This document shows positions 16,464 to 56,604 of a stretch of 64,000 nucleotides of DNA, one piece after another. Origin of the DNA: Helicobacter sp. 16-1353 (GTDB lineage: Bacteria; Campylobacterota; Campylobacteria; Campylobacterales; Helicobacteraceae); contig NZ_NHYM01000002.1 in NCBI RefSeq assembly GCF_003288815.1, forward strand, positions 62,001-126,000, written 5' to 3'. A program made the translations under genes and the position numbers. Under the pieces are notes generated by a model. The model saw only the letters and a list, made by a program, of their open reading frames with translations, was not told where the DNA came from and did no database searches. The first letter of the stretch is position 1, and each line of letters begins with the position of its first letter.

Positions 16464-18211
16464 TTAATATTTTTTATAAACTAATATTTCCTGTGTAAGC
16501 CCAATAGCAAAATTTAATTTCCTACTAAGCAATTCTCCATATTCTTCGCAAGTAGCATTGACTTCATCAAAAAGCAATGCCCGCTCATCGTGAAATTCCC
16601 ATAAATTTAATTTTTCTAATATGCTACGAATAACCCTATAAAGCAATGTTGGCGTTGGATATGTGATTAAAACAATTCCGCCACTTTTTGCAAACTCAAA
16701 ATGTTTTATACACATAGCTCTTGTATTAGTTTTATTAAAATGCTCGATTAAACCAGCAGAAAACACCACATCAAAGCTAGAATCTATTGCTTTAGATTCC
16801 AATAAATTAAATAATATTGCTTTTTGTTTATGTGGCGATTTGGTCGCATATTTGTTATTAAAAGAATCCACACCTTTTTTAGAATTATCAAAAACGATAT
16901 AATCCGCATTGGCGTAGGATTCCCTAAAATCTTTATAAAAGCAGCTATCGCCACCGCCAAACTCGCAAATACGATGTATATTCTTATATTTTTTAAGTAG
17001 ATTCAAAATCATTGTTGCACTAATCTTTCTTGTAATATTTGATATTTTAAAATTATTATTTTTTCGTTTAGAATAATATTTTTCCCAATCTGTCGCCCTA
17101 GCACTTATCCCCCCCCCCATAGATTCTGTATTGATAGAATCTAGAATCTTAGCTTTAGAAGTGAAAATAAAAAATCTCTGCACTAAAAAACTAATAGCAA
17201 AAATCATTGATTCGCAAATTGGCTTAACTATAATCTCACTTACACCGCTATAATATGAGATAAACTTAATACCTTGCATAGAAATAAGCATTAAAACAAT
17301 GGTTAAGGAAATATAAGAAATGAGTTCAAATTTTAGATTCGCTTTTGTTTTGAAAACAATAGTTTTACCAACGATGAAATTAAAGCTTCCAGCGATGATT
17401 CTACCACTTAACATACAAGCAAAAAGTCCAAATCCTAAACTAAAAGCAATCACAAATACAACATAATCAATTAATGCAGTAAGAATGGAATTTCCAATAT
17501 GTCTAAATAGCACAAAATAAATACTTATGGAATCAAAAATAGGATTAAAATGTGAAGCGGCATTATTATTTATATAGATAGTTTTGATTGGGACTTGCAA
17601 TATTTTCATATTTTTATTACAAGCTAAAACTAGCATTTGCATTTCAAATTCATACCCATTATAGGTATTTTTCAACATCATTTTTGCAAAATCAGGACTA
17701 AATGCACGAAGCCCCGTTTGTGTATCTTGTATGGATTTACCAAACATAGTTTTAAATATTACTCTAGTTATTTTATTGCCAAATTTGCTTTTAAATGGGA
17801 TATTTTCCCCTTCAAACTTACGAACACCAATAGCTAAATCTATATCTACATTAGCAAGAAACATATCTCTTAAATGTAGTATATCTTCTACTTTATGCTG
17901 TCCATCGGAATCTGCCGTGATTATTAACTTCAAATTACTATAATTATTTAAGATAAAATTAATGCCATTTTTTAAAGCCGCACCTTTGCCAAGATTGATT
18001 GCATTGTGTAATAAAATCGCTTTTTTATTTATTTGTGAAAAAATAGCATCAAAACTCTTTGGAGAGCCGTCATTTACAATAACAACAGAGATATTTGAAT
18101 CTAATAGTGAATCAACAATATTAAGAAGTTCTGGAGTTGGTTTAAAGCTTGGAATTAAAGCGACTGCCCCCCCCCAATCAATGCCAAATTACCATCTTTG
18201 TAAATATCCAT
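16464..18211 (-). CDS. Phase-variable GT2-GtrA-methyltransferase fusion (out of frame as assembled)
   Basis: The gene starts at ATG 18211 but after 11 codons meets a G9 tract (18167-18175) and ends after 18 residues (IGGGQSL, stop). With G10 (or G7) it would read IGGGAVALIPSFKPTPE and stay open to 16464, giving 582 residues. Domains: a DPM-like GT2 domain (VIVNDGSPKSF, ADSDGQ, DTQTGLRAFS), a GtrA domain with four helices, and, after a second tract (G10, in frame at MGGGIS), a SAM methyltransferase (ICEFGGGDSCF, FSAGLIEHF). The GT2 should load a sugar on polyprenyl phosphate, GtrA flips it, and the downstream GT-C enzyme transfers it. Reading across both tracts is inferred from frame analysis. 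Confidence 0.85.
17109..17118. repeat. Homopolymer tract G10 (coding strand minus) joining GtrA and methyltransferase domains
   Basis: Ten C on the plus strand. At this length the frame runs through (ATG then three GGG codons, then ATA AGT). Nine or eleven bases would cut the protein after the GtrA domain and remove the methyltransferase. Homopolymer G/C tracts of this size slip readily in Helicobacter. Confidence 0.9.
18167..18175. repeat. Homopolymer tract G9 (coding strand minus) at the start of the GT2 gene
   Basis: Nine C on the plus strand, 36 bases after the ATG at 18211. Present length puts the gene out of frame; ten or seven would open it. The reading frame downstream of the tract is open without interruption to the end of the gene, so this is a switch and not general decay. 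Confidence 0.9.
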
Positions 18212-47484: not shown

Positions 47485-49116
47485 TTAAAAAATATCTATA
47501 ATCTCATAAATCTTATTTCTTAGCTTCTCGCCTCTTGTTTCTATGGCTTCCTTATTCCAAGTATCCGCATTTAAAATATCTCTTGTAATTATAAATGCGG
47601 TTGTTTTGTCGTCTCTATTTGCATATACTTCCTTTTTGGTTTCAAAGGAATCATTTGAGGCTTGAATATTCTTTTTGGAATACGATAGCGTTAGATTCCC
47701 CAAAGAATGCGTAAGTTTCTTTTTATCATCATCGCTAAAATGATTAAATTGCTCCCACACTCCAGCCTTTGGATTCTGTGGTAAGATATGCTCTAAATGC
47801 AATTTATTTGATATTTCTATAAAATCCCTTTTCTCCGCATCGCTTGAAAAATATTCCGCCAATAGCAGAATCTGCTTTATCCATTTATCGCTGTCACTAC
47901 ATTCCTCAAGGCGACTTTTAAACTCTTTAGCCCTTTTCTCATCTAAATTTTTTATCATCATATTTTTTATGTCGTCTATTTGGGCTTTTTCTTTGATTTT
48001 CTTTATGATATTTACGGAAGTTTGCTTAAATTGATTTGAAGTATTTCCAGCGATTAAATGCTGATAGTAATACGCCACAAGATGTTTTAACAAGCTATCA
48101 AATTCGCCATATTTCTCAAACTTCGCACCGCACACAATGCTAATCCAATATATCTCATTTGGCAAGTATTTTAGGCAGTAAATATATGTATTATCGCTGT
48201 CTAATATGCCCTTATAGATTTTTGCAAATCCCTTAATTTCATCTATGATTTTCATAGAATCCATATCTTTAAAAACTTTTAATAATTCCTCATCATATCG
48301 CTTTCTTGGAATCTCCCCAAGTTTATAATATGTGTATGTGGTAAGCATGGAATCTAATCTGTTTTCTAGGTCGCGCTCAATTTCTTGCCATTCTGTTTTA
48401 AAACTATTTCTATCCTCTTTAGTCGTCAGTTTTTGCATCAACCTTGCTTTTAAAATATCGCTTGGTCTTAGTGGCAATCCCCTAGTGTTTATAATCTCAA
48501 AGATTCTTATTGCGCTATCTTCATTTTGACAAATAATAACTGTTAAAACAACGCTTGTATAAAGCCATTCTACAAATTCATTGATGGAATTTTCGTTTAT
48601 AGATTTACTCAAATCTTTCTTCAAAAACTCCTTTATAATTTTTGCGTTTGTCGCATATTTATTCTTGTCAGCATTTTCTTTAATGCCCCCATCTACCACT
48701 TTTTTATAATCCAAGTGATACCGCTCATCGGTTAGAAATCTAAGCCTTTCTTCCTTTTCACCATATCTATTTTTCAAAGAATCTAAGATATACTCTTTCG
48801 CCTTGCCCTCTAAATTTTTCTCATATAAATCCCTAATCACACAAGCCAAAAGGCTAAATGTAGTAAGCCTCTGCTGTCCGTCAATCACATCAAATATCTG
48901 CCTATCTTTGTATATTTTTTTGACAACTAACACCAATGAGCCACAAAAATAATCCTCATCGTAAGCATTTACATAAGCAGATTCTAAATCGCTTAATAAA
49001 CTCTCTACATGCTCCTTATCCCACGAATATGGTCGCTGATAATCTGGAACTTGATAAAATCGCTTATCATCAAATATCTCGCTTAATTGTTCGCTTTCTG
49101 CTTTGATTTTTTCCAT
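47485..49116 (-). CDS. GmrSD-like DUF262/DUF1524 protein (gene A)
   Basis: A 543-residue protein with an N-terminal DUF262 domain: QVPDYQRPYSWD (22-33) and the ParB/Srx-like nucleotide motif DVIDGQQRLTTF (76-87). The C-terminal DUF1524 domain has an HNH-type centre: HLEHILPQNPK (440-450), HSLGNLTLSYSKKNIQASN, and the closing WNKEAIETRGEKL. GmrSD and related proteins cut modified (glucosylated or hydroxymethylated) phage DNA in an NTP-dependent way, so an anti-phage role is likely. It has AAGGAG before the ATG and, about 75 bases upstream, a poly-G tract joined to TATAAC. Complete. Confidence 0.85.
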   Translation of the reverse strand: MEKIKAESEQLSEIFDDKRFYQVPDYQRPYSWDKEHVESLLSDLESAYVNAYDEDYFCGSLVLVVKKIYKDRQIFDVIDGQQRLTTFSLLACVIRDLYEKNLEGKAKEYILDSLKNRYGEKEERLRFLTDERYHLDYKKVVDGGIKENADKNKYATNAKIIKEFLKKDLSKSINENSINEFVEWLYTSVVLTVIICQNEDSAIRIFEIINTRGLPLRPSDILKARLMQKLTTKEDRNSFKTEWQEIERDLENRLDSMLTTYTYYKLGEIPRKRYDEELLKVFKDMDSMKIIDEIKGFAKIYKGILDSDNTYIYCLKYLPNEIYWISIVCGAKFEKYGEFDSLLKHLVAYYYQHLIAGNTSNQFKQTSVNIIKKIKEKAQIDDIKNMMIKNLDEKRAKEFKSRLEECSDSDKWIKQILLLAEYFSSDAEKRDFIEISNKLHLEHILPQNPKAGVWEQFNHFSDDDKKKLTHSLGNLTLSYSKKNIQASNDSFETKKEVYANRDDKTTAFIITRDILNADTWNKEAIETRGEKLRNKIYEIIDIF

Positions 49117-49183: not shown

Positions 49184-49217
49184 GTTATACCCCCCCCCAT
49201 TAAGGAAATATTAGAAA
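49184..49217 (-). promoter_or_regulatory. Poly-G promoter cassette of DUF262 gene A
   Basis: On the minus strand: TAATATTTCCTTAAT, then G9 (49190-49198), then TATAACGATG. TATAAC fits a -10 box, with the G tract filling the place between -35 and -10. The upstream part is nearly the same as in the cassette at 52154-52190. Slippage would change spacer length and promoter strength. The gene starts 67 bases further on. Confidence 0.6.
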
Positions 49218-49239
49218 CTACTTAAAATAATCTTAAATT

Positions 49240-49380
49240 AAATCTTAGAAAAAGAATCTTACGAGTTTGCAAAAAAGTTTGATGGAAAAATGTATAGAAA
49301 GTTTTGCGGAATATCGCCACCAAAATATAATAAAAAAGGCTTGGTGGGGTTTTGGAAAGTTTTATGCGATTTATAAAATC
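49240..49380 (+). other. Possible coding remnant in the 49117-49641 intergenic region
   Basis: The plus strand has a start-less open stretch (49240-49380) with protein-like composition, including FDGKMYRKFCGISPPKYNKK. No start codon or ribosome site. It could be a relic of a lost gene. Apart from this, the poly-G promoter and the frameshifted minus-strand fragment, the interval holds nothing I recognise. Confidence 0.2.
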
Positions 49381-49442
49381 TATCGCTAGTTGTGGGAAAA
49401 TTAGGAGTTTATGGGATATTGCTAGAATCTCAAGCATAGAAT

Positions 49443-49630
49443 CTAATGTCGAGATTCTTGTAAAAACGCATTTTTACCATCGAACAACACTTTTGTAGCT
49501 TGGCTATTATAATCAAAATCTATGTAGTATAAAAAGCTAGAATATCCCTACTGCTTAAATAAAGCGAATCTTGTAAATTGTCTAAAACTTGGGAAGTGGT
49601 AGAATCTGCTTTGGATTGTTTAAATTGCAT
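49443..49630 (-). pseudogene. Small frameshifted gene fragment
   Basis: ATG 49630 starts MQFKQSKADSTTSQVLDNLQ and stops after 36 residues. In another frame the sequence goes on as SFLYYIDFDYNSQATKVLFD to a stop at 49443, which looks like natural protein. A one-base loss near the middle would explain it. It lies 11 bases after the YwqK-repeat gene. No family recognised; gene status is tentative. Confidence 0.3.
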
Positions 49631-49641
49631 ATACCCAATCC

Positions 49642-50127
49642 TTATCGTCCTCGTATGTCGTCCTCATCTATAACATAATACCCATCTTTATCTATCATAC
49701 ACCCATCTTCATATAGATATTCGACACTAAAACTCCCATCTTTATACCACTCTTTTACTATGCCGTGTCGTTCGCCATTTTTATATGGAGTTTCACTCTT
49801 AAGATTCCCATTTTCATACCACAACTTTTCCATACTAAGTATGCCATTTTCGTATATACACTCTCTCACGAGTTTCCCGCTTTTATGCCACTCCTTTTCC
49901 GTGCCATATGTTCTGCCATTTTTGTATGGAACCTCTTTCCAAAGATTCCCATTGTCATAATACCACTTTTCTACGCCTTGCTCTTCGTTATATTCATATG
50001 TCGTCTCTCTCCTAAGATTTCCATTTTTATAATATTCCTTTGCTATGCCGTGTATTTTGCCATTTTCATATGGAATCTCGCTCTTTAGGTTTCCATTTTC
50101 ATAATATTCCTTTTCTATGGTTGCCAT
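49642..50127 (-). CDS. YwqK/MORN-like repeat protein
   Basis: A 161-residue protein made of about six repeats of 23-25 residues, each of the form (Y/W)YxNGNLxxExPYxNGxxxGxxKE (for example YYENGNLKSEIPYENGKIHG, WYENGNLKSETPYKNGERHG). No signal peptide. Such repeats occur in proteins annotated as YwqK-family antitoxins and in many Fusobacteria and Helicobacter proteins of unknown role. It has AAGGAGG before the ATG. Position between two DUF262 genes suggests an accessory or immunity protein, but repeat proteins of this type are common and no partner is proven. Confidence 0.75.
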   Translation of the reverse strand: MATIEKEYYENGNLKSEIPYENGKIHGIAKEYYKNGNLRRETTYEYNEEQGVEKWYYDNGNLWKEVPYKNGRTYGTEKEWHKSGKLVRECIYENGILSMEKLWYENGNLKSETPYKNGERHGIVKEWYKDGSFSVEYLYEDGCMIDKDGYYVIDEDDIRGR

Positions 50128-50198
50128 ATTTCCTCCTTGTTTTAAATCTAATGCTATTATTTAAACGATTAAAAATTACTTCAAAAACTCGTGGAAAA

Positions 50199-50276
50199 TC
50201 ACACATTTTCGCTAAACCATTCATAAAGTCGATTGAAAATCTCATTTTCTCTATTCTCTATATCCTCTTTAAGTCA
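50199..50276 (-). other. In-frame TGA and lost C-terminal helix of DUF262 gene B
   Basis: TGA at 50274-50276 (complement) interrupts KYPKDD and LKEDIENREN; the frame then stays open for 24 codons to a TGA at 50199-50201. The piece matches the closing W-x-x-x-x-I-x-x-R pattern seen intact in gene A (WNKEAIETRGEKL). Confidence 0.6.
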
Positions 50277-51875
50277 GTCATCTTTTGGATATTTCGCCAA
50301 CTCATTTGCTTCAAGGAATTTAGAATTTTTATATTTCTCTTTTTTCTTGCCAAAGTAGCCATTCCCAGCTTCGATATTTATCTGTTTTTCTAGCCACATT
50401 TTATTGCCAAGCGATTCTAGCTTTTCTTTTGCACTATCTTTATCCCAGCCGTTATAATTTGTATTCTGCCATTTGCGTGGGAAAATATGCTCGACTTCCC
50501 CCGCCAATATATCTTGGTCTTGGAATTTTAGATACATATTTAGCGATATTAGAGCATTTTGCAACTTAGATGGTGAGAGCAAATTTTTCTTAAAATTTTC
50601 TTTATCTTCTAATATCTTTTTGGCACTATCGCCAAAATCTAACTTCCCATTTTTATATAAGTTCGTATAAGCCTTAAAAACTATGGGCTTTATCGTATTT
50701 ACTGCCTTGCTATCGATAAAAACCACGAATAAATTGGCGATACTTTGTTGCAAAAGTGGCAAAATCCTAGAATCGCTAAAATAATCCTTGTCCTTAAAAT
50801 AAAAGTAAATCGCACTATTTAGATAGTAGTGATATTCGTTTGGGTAGTCTGCCAAAATATCGAAAAACTGATTTGCTCTAAGGCTTAATTTGTCGTCATA
50901 TTTATCCCCCCAAAATTTCACCAAATCGCTTATGTCCTCCATTAGCTCTGCAGATTTTAACGCTTCCACATTATTTTTTAGAAAGAATGTCCTAAGTGCA
51001 ATTTCCTTAGAAGTATCATTATTTTTCGCTCTTAAAACATGCATATACTGCCTAAAATACCACTCAATATTTTCGACATTTTCCTCAATCTCCTGCCATT
51101 GTTTTATGAAGTCCTTCCTAGAATCTGCCTTTGTAAAGCCATAAACTTTACTTTTAATAATATCAGAATCTCCCAGCGGAAGCCCCCTATCATTTAGCGT
51201 TTGGAAAATCCTAAGTGCGGAATCCTCGCTCTTACATTCAATAGGCATAATGATTAGATTATTTAAAACCACCTTACAAAATTCTCCAAACGAATCCGGA
51301 TTTTGAGTCAAAAAATCATCTATTTTTCCCCTAAAAAATTGAAAGTTTTTGGCATAGAGTGAGTTTTGCTTATTATCCAAAGTGCAATCCTCGCTTAAAA
51401 TTTTTTCTAACTCCGTTAAACCCTCATCTAAAATCACCTTGCTTTTTAGGTGTGTTTTAGTAAATTCCAGCTCCTCGCTCCCCTCATCATAGCACCAAAT
51501 ACATTTGCCAAAAAGCTTGGCGTAACCTTTCGTGTTTTCATTGGTGTAATTGCCCCCTGTGGCTTTTTCATAAAGTGCACGAAAAAGCAAGTTTAAGGTG
51601 GTGATTCTCTGCTGTCCATCGATGATTTCTAGCACATTTTTATTATCCTCACTGCTAAATCCCACAATGCTCCCTAGATAATATTCGTTTTTTTCTTGGG
51701 AATTTTGTGCGTTTGTTTGTCGCACCTCTCCAAAAAAATCTAAAATATCCTCCCACAGCGTTTGACACTGCTCTTTATCCCAGCGATATTGTCGCTGATA
51801 CTCAGGGATTAGAAACTCCCTCCCAGAACTTAGAAAATCCTTAATGCTTTTAGGGTCAACATTCATGTCTGCCAT
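50274..51875 (-). CDS. GmrSD-like DUF262/DUF1524 protein (gene B), ending at an early TGA
   Basis: A 533-residue protein with DUF262 motifs FLIPEYQRQYRWDKEQ (21-36) and EIIDGQQRITTL (83-94), and the DUF1524 HNH-like part EVEHIFPRKW (about 460) with ESLGNKMWLEKQINIEAGN. Related to gene A by domain plan but clearly diverged. The frame stops at TGA 50274-50276, yet the next 24 codons in the same frame give LKEDIENRENEIFNRLYEWF, the normal last helix of the family. So a short C-terminal piece is lost or read through. It has its own TATAAT promoter. Probable role: cleavage of modified phage DNA. Confidence 0.82.
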   Translation of the reverse strand: MADMNVDPKSIKDFLSSGREFLIPEYQRQYRWDKEQCQTLWEDILDFFGEVRQTNAQNSQEKNEYYLGSIVGFSSEDNKNVLEIIDGQQRITTLNLLFRALYEKATGGNYTNENTKGYAKLFGKCIWCYDEGSEELEFTKTHLKSKVILDEGLTELEKILSEDCTLDNKQNSLYAKNFQFFRGKIDDFLTQNPDSFGEFCKVVLNNLIIMPIECKSEDSALRIFQTLNDRGLPLGDSDIIKSKVYGFTKADSRKDFIKQWQEIEENVENIEWYFRQYMHVLRAKNNDTSKEIALRTFFLKNNVEALKSAELMEDISDLVKFWGDKYDDKLSLRANQFFDILADYPNEYHYYLNSAIYFYFKDKDYFSDSRILPLLQQSIANLFVVFIDSKAVNTIKPIVFKAYTNLYKNGKLDFGDSAKKILEDKENFKKNLLSPSKLQNALISLNMYLKFQDQDILAGEVEHIFPRKWQNTNYNGWDKDSAKEKLESLGNKMWLEKQINIEAGNGYFGKKKEKYKNSKFLEANELAKYPKDD

Positions 51876-51904
51876 CTTTTCTCCTTTAAATTTTTATTTG
51901 CGAT

Positions 51905-51910
51905 ATTATA
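51905..51910 (-). promoter_or_regulatory. -10 box of DUF262 gene B
   Basis: Minus strand reads GCGTTATAATATCG, 29 bases before the ATG at 51875, which has AAAGGAG as ribosome site. No poly-G tract lies beside it, unlike the promoters for gene A and the DUF262 fragment. Confidence 0.5.
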
Positions 51911-51981
51911 ACGCTTTCCACACCACAACCTAAGATTCTTAAGCGACTTTATCTCTAAAATAAGCTAGAATCCTAGATTTT

Positions 51982-52000
51982 AAAATTGCGAAGCAATTTT
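51982..52000 (-). terminator. Hairpin after the DUF262 fragment
   Basis: A perfect eight-base-pair inverted repeat, AAAATTGC-TTC-GCAATTTT on the minus strand, three bases past the stop of the DUF262 fragment and about 72 bases before the gene B -10 box. Its AT-rich stem and T-run fit a weak intrinsic terminator. Confidence 0.4.
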
Positions 52001-52002
52001 TG

Positions 52003-52125
52003 TTAACTTCTCAAATCCTCCCATAAATCACGGAAATTTTTCTCTCCCCACGCATAATCCCGCTGATATTGTGGAATGCTAAGCCAATTTACGCCAAAAA
52101 TCTCACTAATCTTTTTTTGTGCCAT
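52003..52125 (-). pseudogene. Truncated DUF262 gene (N-terminal 40 residues)
   Basis: ATG 52125 with a strong ribosome site (TTAAGGAGAG) opens MAQKKISEIFGVNWLSIPQY and continues with QRDYAWGEKNFRDLWEDL before a TAA. This is the DUF262 N-terminus (QYQRxYxW pattern), as in genes A and B, but nothing else of the protein follows. It keeps an intact poly-G/TATAAT promoter. It is either the relic of a third gene or a short peptide still made. Confidence 0.7.
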
Positions 52126-52153
52126 TTCTCTCTCCTTAATTTTAATTTATAGT

Positions 52154-52190
52154 ATTATAACCCCCCCCCTCCCCTTAAGGAAATATTATA
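52154..52190 (-). promoter_or_regulatory. Poly-G promoter cassette of the DUF262 fragment
   Basis: Minus strand: TTATAATATTTCCTTAAGGGGA, G9 (52161-52169), T, then TATAAT (complement of 52154-52159). The last is a consensus -10 box directly after the tract, 29 bases before the fragment's ATG. The 17 bases upstream share all but two with the gene A cassette. Confidence 0.6.
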
Positions 52191-52361: not shown

Positions 52362-54516
52362 ATGCGACTAAAAAATCTCATAATTTTCGTAACGGGGGGG
52401 GGGTATAATTATATCTACAAATCTATTCTCCCAAGACATCAAGGAAATTGATTTAGGCAAAACCGTAGTTAGTGCAAGTGGCTTTGAGGAAAATATCAAG
52501 GACGCTCCAGCCACGATTTCTATTATCCCTGAAGAGGAGTTAGTAAATCGCCCTATTAGGGATTTGGGCGATGCTTTGCAAGAGATTCCGGGTGTAAATA
52601 CAACTATTTCCAAAACAGGGGCTAGTAGCATTTCTATTCGTGGTTTAAGTGCGGGTTATACGCTAATTCTAATAGATGGCAAAAGGCAGAATGTCGCCTC
52701 TGGCTTTGGCGGAAGTGGATTTGACCCAAGCAGTGGCTTTATGCCGCCGGTATCGATGATAGAGCGGATTGAGGTTATTCGCGGTCCTGCGTCTATAATC
52801 TATGGAAGCGATGCGATGGGTGGCGTTATAAACATCATCACAAAGAAAAATACTAATATCTTAAGCGGGAGTTTTGCCACAGAGTTACGACTGCAACAGC
52901 ATAATGACACTTGGGGCGATATGTATGGATTTAATGGATTTGTGAGCTCTCCACTAGTGCAAAATAGCTTATTTCTAAATGTGCGAGGGCGATACAATGC
53001 CACTGGAGCGAATAAATTCTTAAAATCGTCCATTCCGGGCTACACAGGAGATACAACTACAAATCCCTACACAAGCCACTCTCCCACAGGCTATCGCATC
53101 GCAAGTGTGGGCGGGAGATTAACTTGGGATGTAGATTCTGCAAATTCGCTCTATGTAGATAGTGAGTTCAACTACCAAAATCTAGGCTCTCTAAATACGA
53201 GTAGTAGGCAAATTACGGCGATTAGAGATTATTATAAATACAATACCGTGCTAAATCACGATGGGGATTATTCGTGGGGGATTCTCAATACCTATATCCA
53301 ATATGCCGACACAAAGCAGATTCCCCAAATTATCGCAAATGTCGGCGATACAAAAGGACCACACAATCGAGGCACTTTGCAAGACTATCAAAATGCGGTT
53401 TTAAATAGCACTTGGAGAGATAGCTATGGCGTGGGTGAAGGGGCGATTATGGTGTATGCTGGGCTAAATTATAGCTATGAGCAGCTCGAACTACGAAGCA
53501 CGGATTTTGTGCGTCATCAAAATCAAGTGGCGATTTTCGGCGAGGCGGAATATTTGCCATTTGAGCTATTGTCCGCTACTTTGGGCTTAAGGATAAATTA
53601 TAGCGACCTTTATAACGCAATGCCAAATCCTAGATTCTACCTTAATATCAATCCTAGCGATTGGCTCACCATCAAAATGGGCGTTCAAAGTGGTATGAAA
53701 GTCCCTGCAATCGCCTATCTCTACGATGGCTACACGGAATCCACCTCAAACTCTAGCAATATTTACACATACGGCAATAGCAACCTACAAGCGGAGAAAA
53801 CTTGGAATTACGAGGCGAGTTTGATATTTGACACGGATTTTGCAAATATTTCTTTGACTGGATTCTACACGGATTTCCGCGATGCAATCGATGGCGTAAG
53901 CTACACCACTGGAGCAAATATGCCACGATATGGAGTCTGCTCTGCTGGGGAATGTGTGTTATACCAAAATGTGGATAAGGCATTTTCAAGTGGGGCGGAA
54001 GTTAGCTTTAAAACAACGAGATTCTATGGAGTTGGCTTTGATGCGACCTACGCATACACCTACACAAGGCAAATGTCAGGAGTTGATAAAGGTCTCCCGC
54101 TAAATCTCGTCCCAAGACACAATGGCTCTGCGAAAATCTCCTATCAAATCGATGCCTTTGATATGTATTTGCGATGGATTGGGAAATTCACAACGCCCAC
54201 TTCAAACGCACACACCGCAAATGCTGGGATTGGGGCGTATTATAAAAATGTGCATTTGCTGGATTTAGGGCTTAGCTATCGATTTGCTGGGGATTCTGAT
54301 TCTGGCGTTGGCTTAAGTGGGGATTCTGCGGATTCTGCGTTAGATTCCACGAGGCAAAATAATGTGGCTTGGACGCTTAGCTTTGTGGTAAATAACTTGC
54401 TTGATACGAATTTCGTGGATTATGTGGCGACAAATGGCGGAGCAAACTATACAAATCTATATCAACGAATGATTCCAAGCCGAAACTTTTGGGTGAATCT
54501 CAAAGCGGATTTTTAA
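52362..54516 (+). CDS. Phase-variable TonB-dependent outer membrane receptor (out of frame as assembled)
   Basis: The gene begins at ATG 52362 (MRLKNLIIFVTGGG) and runs into a G10 tract (52394-52403). As assembled the product ends after about 29 residues. With G9 (or G12) it reads on as IIISTNLFSQ, completing a signal peptide, then a TonB-box/plug region (DALQEIPGVNTTISK, SISIRGLSAGYTLILIDGKR, ERIEVIRGPASIIYGSDAMG) and a 22-strand-type barrel ending FWVNLKADF; about 717 residues. Such receptors take up ferric siderophores, heme or cobalamin. A GATTCT-coded Ser/Asp-rich stretch (GDSDSGVGLSGDSADSALDS) lies near the end. Ligand unknown; siderophore-type by resemblance to CirA/FepA. Confidence 0.88.
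52394..52403. repeat. Homopolymer tract G10 in the TonB receptor signal peptide
   Basis: Ten G on the plus strand, coding strand of the receptor. Nine or twelve would put the signal peptide and receptor in one frame; ten does not. The tract is followed at once by TATAAT. Confidence 0.92.
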
Positions 54517-55161: not shown

Positions 55162-56429
55162 TTAATGAAAAATTATTGGAATCTCTGGGTAATTTTTGAT
55201 ATTTGGAGAATCTAATCCAGCTAGATAGCCAAGCCCTTTTTTAAATGGAATTTTGTTTAGATTCTCTGTATTTTTTGGATTCGCCGGATTTTTCGCACTC
55301 TTTGCGGAATCTGCGGAATCCGCTCTAAAATCTGCAAAATCCAAATACACGCAATTAGATTCCGCTAAATTATTAGAATCTAAGTCGCTAACCAACCCAG
55401 CGACTAAGTCATTCCTAACATAGCTCACCTCAATTAGATTGCTTAAAAATAGCCCCTTGCCATAAAAAATACTTCCATTATTGTTAAAATGCGTGTGGAT
55501 AGGCGTGTAATACCGCCTTAGCTTCTCTAAAGCTGGTAGTCGCTTTTTCAATTTTAGGGGATATTCGGGGTTACAGCCCTGAAACTCAAACACAATCTGC
55601 GGAAAATACTGCGCCACAAAGCCCAAATCAACCTCCCTTAAAATATCCCATTCCGCGCCCTCAATGTCAATTTGCATAATATTATGGTGACTTTTATCCA
55701 GCCCATTTTCCCGCACCACACGCTCAAAGCTAATCGTATCATCGCTTTCAACCACGCCCACGAACTTTTTAATAAATGTGATATTTGGGTGATTATACGG
55801 AGCGGAATCTATACTTGCGTCGTATTGCAAGACTTTATAGCCCATATTTGCCATTTCTAAATCCCAAGGGGAATATGGCGAAACGCCGAGTGATAGGGCT
55901 TTGGGGGCGTTGGATTCTGTGGATTTTGCTGTGTTGGATTCTGTGGATTTCGCGCTAGATTCTGTGAGTTTGGATTCCGTGCTAGATTCTGCAGATTCTG
56001 CGGAATTTGCTGTTTTAGATTCTGCGTGATTTGTGGAGTTTAAAGCGTCTTTTGTGAGCTTATAGGGGGGGGGGTAAGCATTACATATCCGCCGTCATAT
56101 TCGCCACCGATTCGCTTCAATTTAGCTGGATTCACGCACATCGGTCGCACCAAATCCAAATATCTTTTGATATTTTCCACATTGTAGCTTAGCTGGATTG
56201 CACCTCTTGGGCTTGGATACATTGATAAAAATATCGCTTCTTTCGCTACTTTGGGGATATCCAGCTCTTTTATAATATCGCGTGAAAGCGTGAAATTATT
56301 CACCGCACTCATCGCATTCACCACCTCATCTATGCCAAGCAGCCTTTGGACTTTCCGCCGAATACGGTTTTTGCCATTGCCCAACATTCTCTTTAATTTT
56401 CGCCTAACGCGGAGCATAAAATTTACCAT
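55162..56429 (-). CDS. Phase-variable FkbM-family methyltransferase (out of frame as assembled)
   Basis: Starts at ATG 56429 (MVNFMLRVRRKLKRMLGNG, AAGGAAAG upstream). The first 120 residues reach GGEYDGGYVMLTPPP and a C10 tract (56065-56074), after which the present frame ends at 56040. With C11 (or C8) it reads through YKLTKDALNS, a Ser/Glu/Ala/Thr linker coded by GAATC repeats, LGVSPYSPWDLEMANMGYKV and the FkbM core (MQIDIEGAEWDILREVD; IVFEFQGCNPEYPLKLKK) to 55162; 422 residues. FkbM enzymes O-methylate glycans or other small groups, here probably surface sugars. A second small repeat-rich stretch (DFADFRADSADSAKSAKN) lies near the end. Confidence 0.85.
56065..56074. repeat. Homopolymer tract C10 (coding strand minus) in the FkbM methyltransferase
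   Basis: Ten G on the plus strand. Eleven or eight bases would join the N-terminal segment with the methyltransferase core; the present ten leads to a stop at 56040. In coding direction the tract is followed by TATAAG. Confidence 0.92.
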
Positions 56430-56604
56430 TTGCTTTCCTTTTTTTAGATTTAAAACCCACATTATAGCGAAACTTAAAGACCTTAAATTTATATAGTATA
56501 AACGCAATAAAATGGTTATAATTCCTAGTTTTATAAATTATTTCACAAATTATTCACAAAATTGTTATTAAATACGAAATTATTTTAAGCAAAGGTTGGC
56601 GTAA

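Follow-up and report, generated by a model that had tools for sequence, protein, structure and literature searches.

The two poly-G cassettes on the minus strand of the window (the whole 64-kb stretch of DNA analysed here) are, on balance, probably housekeeping-sigma promoters of a wider class, in which slippage of a nine-G tract would alter the transcription of a GmrSD-like restriction gene; tract, -10 hexamer, gene and class membership are read from the sequence. In such a promoter the slippage-prone run of nine G would sit right before the -10 hexamer, slipped-strand mispairing would add or remove one G, the -10 would shift in distance and helical phase relative to the upstream contact region, and the shifted spacing would change transcription of the restriction gene. 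In the consensus genome the active length is probably G9. Since spacers of the class already span 18-22 nt, a single G may alter promoter strength only modestly.

Both sites read as the original prediction had described them (Table 1), i.e. AATATTTCCTTAA, a G9 tract preceded by GGGGA in one case, TATAAC or TATAAT, and a DUF262 start codon. It had passed over the single T before TATAAT in cassette 2, the intact 533-aa gene between the sites and the genome-wide promoter class. The exact AATATTTCCTTAA 13-mer occurs in only two copies in the window, both at the cassettes. The original prediction had also proposed looking for the string in other Helicobacter genomes; AATATTTCCTTAA-Gn recurs nowhere else in 121 Helicobacteraceae genomes, among which the composite AATATTTCCTTAA-N0-8-G6 is confined to cassettes 1 and 2; a conserved family-wide element of this kind is thereby ruled out. 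When the region upstream of the stump was compared by BLASTN with the 8 kb downstream, the cassette pair was the top match (22/24 identical, E=5e-4). The restriction of AATATTTCCTTAA plus G-run to these two sites, together with this top local match, points to local duplication as the probable link between the cassette promoters. Each possesses a pure homopolymer of at least 8 bases, G9, in its promoter region, and runs of G>=8 yield 15 overlapping matches in the window versus 0.35 expected from shuffles. A recognisable -35 was not found at either cassette (best match 3/6 positions); an E. coli-type consensus -35 is absent, and promoter-like matches in the region remain at shuffle level.

Table 1. 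Features of the two poly-G cassettes and of the genes behind them.
Feature	Position	Strand	Basis or remark
AATATTTCCTTAA block, cassette 1	49200-49212	minus	exact 13-mer
Single T between AATATTTCCTTAA block and G9, cassette 1		minus	sequence
G9 tract, cassette 1	49190-49198	minus	sequence
TATAAC, candidate -10 of the 543-aa gene, abutting G9 directly	49184-49189	minus	sequence and class statistics
ATG of the 543-aa gene	49116	minus	73 nt past the cassette 1 tract
Intact GmrSD-like protein, 543 aa (DUF262 + DUF1524)	47485-49116	minus	Pfam, PADLOC, sequence
Second intact GmrSD-like protein (DUF262/DUF1524), 533 aa, between both cassettes	50274-51875	minus	Pfam
AATATTTCCTTAA block, cassette 2	52175-52187	minus	exact 13-mer
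GGGGA + G9 tract, cassette 2	52161-52174 (G9 = 52161-52169)	minus	sequence
TATAAT, candidate -10, cassette 2, separated from G9 by one T	52154-52159	minus	sequence
ATG of the DUF262 stump	52125	minus	35 nt past the cassette 2 tract
DUF262 stump, 40 codons	52003-52125	minus	PF03235 positions 2-35 only, 3.5e-8

In its 1.9 Mb the genome (G000) contains 142 runs of G>=8, most of which fall within ORFs; several are densely clustered on contigs C2, C5, C12 and C29. Judged from these tracts, a very large number of genes may be contingency loci. The distribution of run lengths has two modes, dipping at G7 (1 run) and reaching its maximum at G9 (70 runs); the sample was picked around G>=8 runs, which inflates long runs about five-fold relative to short ones and does not cause the trough. 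A -10-like hexamer (TANAAT-type) starts 0-3 nt after the tract in 14/51 non-coding versus 3/91 coding cases (p=4e-5), a division made by ORF length only and after the tract of the TonB receptor described below had been reassigned to coding. The string G8-TANAAT occurs 29 times in five genomes of the genus, versus 4 times for the backward control, at least one of the matches being coding (TonB receptor). TTAAGC is a described -35 signal in H. pylori. This hexamer or a one-base variant is located 19-22 nt from the -10 in 15/25 class promoters versus 2.8% of random window positions; the 25 promoters, drawn from five genomes of the genus, include some of paralogous or orthologous genes and are therefore only partly independent, which makes the p-value of this enrichment too small. 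With a TTAAGC-like -35 at this distance, the tract falls within the spacer of a genuine promoter in this genus, and a mere coincidence of G9 and TATAAT is ruled out by the -35 enrichment and the coding/non-coding contrast. The earlier claim that the tract occupies the spacer whose length sets promoter strength thus stands for the class; at the cassettes themselves, which have no recognisable -35, it is carried over from the class.

Judged by architecture, the cassettes belong to a genome-wide promoter class with as many as a dozen or so target genes in a genome of the genus. Among the products of genes behind its promoters are a McrB-like/McrC pair, a thiolase, an MFS transporter, a Helicobacter outer membrane protein, PLD-like, DUF805 and small proteins. 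Many G8-TATAAT sites of genus g5 (G058, G059, G061 and most of G067) looked like coding sequence and were rejected as class promoters, and the class was therefore drawn from the window's own genus only. Genus mates (L308, L310, L312, L314, L319, L320, L321) possess near-identical promoters of the form TTAAGC-N10/11-G9-TAGAAT, with G8 in L308; several precede outer-membrane-protein-like genes, and G9 is present in orthologues of different species. In another genus (L322, G067:C4:95937-103003), neighbouring genes are preceded by three related promoters, TTCAG(C/T)AATATTTAAGC-G12/G12/G13-TATAAT, whose tracts are longer than those of the window's genus.

Tract length is G8 or G9 in 25/25 class promoters from the five genomes of the genus, whereas coding tracts of the same genome reach G10 or more in 38/90 cases, up to G15. 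No variation of G-tract length was seen at these 25 promoters, among which the DUF262 locus is represented by a single genome. If length had no effect, promoter tracts should drift like coding ones, so this constancy suggests that length matters; it equally means that no switching was observed. It is unlikely, though worth serious consideration, that G9 is instead a stable promoter part (TTAAGC-N10-13-G9-TANAAT) of constant strength or DNA shape, slippage being repaired or selected away and no meaningful switching taking place. The absence of promoter tracts longer than G9 agrees with such a fixed spacer, as do target genes that appear housekeeping-like, e.g. the thiolase. A fixed spacer should, however, tolerate interrupted or short runs, and the genome contains 12 pure runs of G>=8 abutting TANAAT as against one interrupted (GGGGAGGGG-TAGAAT) and two short ones. 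It also fits poorly with G9 runs that vary in H. canadensis reads (PMC2823697) and with orthologues that retain a homopolymer of another base and of variable length.

Five such orthologous DUF262 genes from other genera (48-50% identity) possess a T-run of 7, 8, 9, 13 or 14 abutting GATTAT(A/C)AT, with nearly constant flanks, and the DUF262 gene of the gastric group has A11, A14, A15 or A16 upstream of TTATAAT. Few other genes of two sampled genomes are preceded by tracts of this kind (T 5/94, this gene included; A 1/73). The variation of the T and A tracts is an indirect sign of variability and, as far as sequence comparison goes, favours a phase-variable promoter. The phase-variable reading of the original prediction is accordingly supported by the pure, slippage-prone homopolymers before the -10 and by the variable T and A tracts of orthologues, but not by the G tract itself, with its G8-G9 throughout. 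The tract is absent from other DUF262 orthologues (most of L130-L140), and other DUF262 loci in the genome have no promoter tract; a homopolymer is therefore not universal at DUF262 promoters. A AATATTTC block upstream of the A tract in gastric orthologues was rejected as a shared element, and nothing is inferred from it, since the word is common in the AT-rich window (6/58 upstream regions).

The gene and the gene fragment that had been assigned to the GmrSD-type DUF262/DUF1524 family correspond to an intact 543-aa protein, confirmed by Pfam, and to the 40-codon stump. The 543-aa protein possesses an N-terminal DUF262/GmrS domain (GmrSD_N PF03235, 3.3e-39, positions 1-199 of 199) and a C-terminal DUF1524/GmrD domain (GmrSD_C PF07510, 3.6e-22), and its top PADLOC model is HEC-06 (6.5e-61, nearly full length). 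According to the GmrSD motif list of PMC11411939, it contains YQRPYSW (QR), IDGQQR (DGQQR), FEIIN (FxxxN) and LEHILP..N..GN..L..N (His-Me finger H..N..N). Its product is likely an anti-phage nuclease that would restrict modified phage DNA, and the anti-phage activity and bet-hedging that had been proposed for the DUF262 cassettes are an inference. No close relatives of the gene were found in the genome contigs searched, and among four genus mates three gave no match and one a weak match.

The second intact gene, which lies between both cassettes and encodes 533 aa, shares 30% identity over 274 columns with the 543-aa protein and possesses its own -10, TATAAT at 51905-51910, with no tract adjoining. 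Cassette 2 sits 285 nt upstream of it. Neither a terminator scan nor folding revealed a convincing terminator between the two, so isolation of cassette 2 by a terminator is unsupported and cassette 2 could also feed the 533-aa gene. Cassette 2 is either left over from a deleted paralogue or serves the intact 533-aa gene as an additional, more distal promoter. It is improbable that both cassettes are the decaying remnants of a duplicated defence locus, with no current regulatory effect: cassette 2 does head a 40-codon stump and the two promoters share a short block that occurs nowhere else, but the gene behind cassette 1 is intact and has every motif of the family, the tract of cassette 1 is pure, and chance would very rarely produce G runs this long (0.35 overlapping G8 matches expected in 64 kb). 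Least credible is an action of the tract in the mRNA leader as target of a RepG-type regulatory RNA, RepG itself being the precedent, with transcription starting upstream of the tract, because a transcript from the predicted -10 downstream of the tract would exclude it, so that, judged from this predicted position only, the G-repeat is not inside a transcribed 5' leader, and because the class -35 lies upstream of the tract.

A TonB-dependent receptor (52362-54516, plus strand) is encoded 230 nt away from cassette 2, on the other strand. Its best NCBIfam match is the CfrA enterobactin receptor model, below the cut-off of that model. It contains a G10 (52394-52403) in the signal-peptide region, and its start is one base out of frame as assembled; by its sequence, the receptor is a coding contingency locus, predicted to be in the OFF state as assembled. 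Further G9-G10 runs of the window are found at 17109-17118 (minus), inside a 489-aa ORF (16464-17933), at 18167-18175 (minus) and at 56065-56074 (plus), the last within a short 155-aa ORF (56040-56507, minus) near an FkbM-type methyltransferase ORF. UvrA, which adjoins the cassette region, is 82-86% identical to that of uncultured Helicobacteraceae from metagenomes, one of them from sheep colon, and at most 76% to named or cultured Helicobacter, and on these identities the host is probably an animal-gut relative of Helicobacter.

A second type IV restriction system of the genome, a McrB-like AAA protein plus McrC (PF10117, 9e-85), is located behind G8-TTATAAT (L100, G000:C27:56000-65000, tract at about C27:61911). 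Like both cassettes, this promoter has kept the G-run and the -10 and shows no clear -35. In C. jejuni, deletion of mcrB renders a strain sensitive to 17/43 phages (PMC8713573).

The mechanism is best read as promoter homopolymer phase variation, a type already known from H. canadensis and Neisseria, acting on an uncommon class of targets. In Neisseria promoters of the porA/opc type, promoter strength is determined by a homopolymer in the spacer from -35 to -10; the -35 is known there, whereas none is recognisable at the two cassettes. H. canadensis possesses poly-G/A tracts in the predicted promoters of five genes, with lengths that vary in reads, as candidates for transcriptional phase variation (PMC2823697). 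Common to both cases are the family and the long G-runs in predicted promoters, but in H. canadensis G10-G16 precede cytotoxin-like, protease-like or hypothetical genes, whereas here G8-G9 lie beside the -10 before type IV restriction genes. HEC-06, a GmrSD-like protein reported to act alone, and the family members TgvB, BrxU and SspE resemble the 543-aa protein in motifs and in uniting DUF262 and DUF1524 in a single chain (PMC11411939); a homopolymer promoter is reported for none of them in the papers found, and a candidate one precedes the 543-aa gene. Homopolymer-driven variation of DNA-restriction functions is known in the same phylum from phase-variable restriction-modification genes of Helicobacter and Campylobacter (modH, PMC5700931; PMC6321876). 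In phasevarions, the switching of a methyltransferase by a gene such as modH in turn alters gene regulation (PMC5700931, PMC3230613). In Campylobacter most tracts act on translation, intergenic tracts occur in homologues from 20% of phase-variable gene groups, and restriction-modification genes account for nine of the phase-variable groups (PMC6321876). The tract described here differs in lying in the promoter of predicted modification-dependent nuclease genes without a methylase.

As a more tentative and somewhat doubtful generalisation, type IV restriction genes of Helicobacteraceae may have repeatedly and independently gained slippage-prone promoter homopolymers (G in GmrSD and McrBC, T or A in orthologous DUF262 genes), the dosage of methylase-free nucleases being set by promoter contingency loci within genus-wide TTAAGC-Gn-TANAAT switch promoters. 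A search of the open-access literature, to which most subscription journals do not belong, yielded no report of phase variation at the promoter of a GmrSD or McrBC gene, and within the literature searched the mechanism appears not to have been described before at type IV restriction genes.

A nuclease against modified DNA that has no protecting methylase is a hazard to a cell that methylates its own DNA, as Helicobacter do at many sites. The genus-wide class with its near-fixed G8-G9 offers a clean natural test of homopolymer spacers as switches versus structural elements. If the cassettes are contingency switches at the promoter level, a population would keep a fraction of its cells armed, which could explain variable phage or transformation phenotypes.
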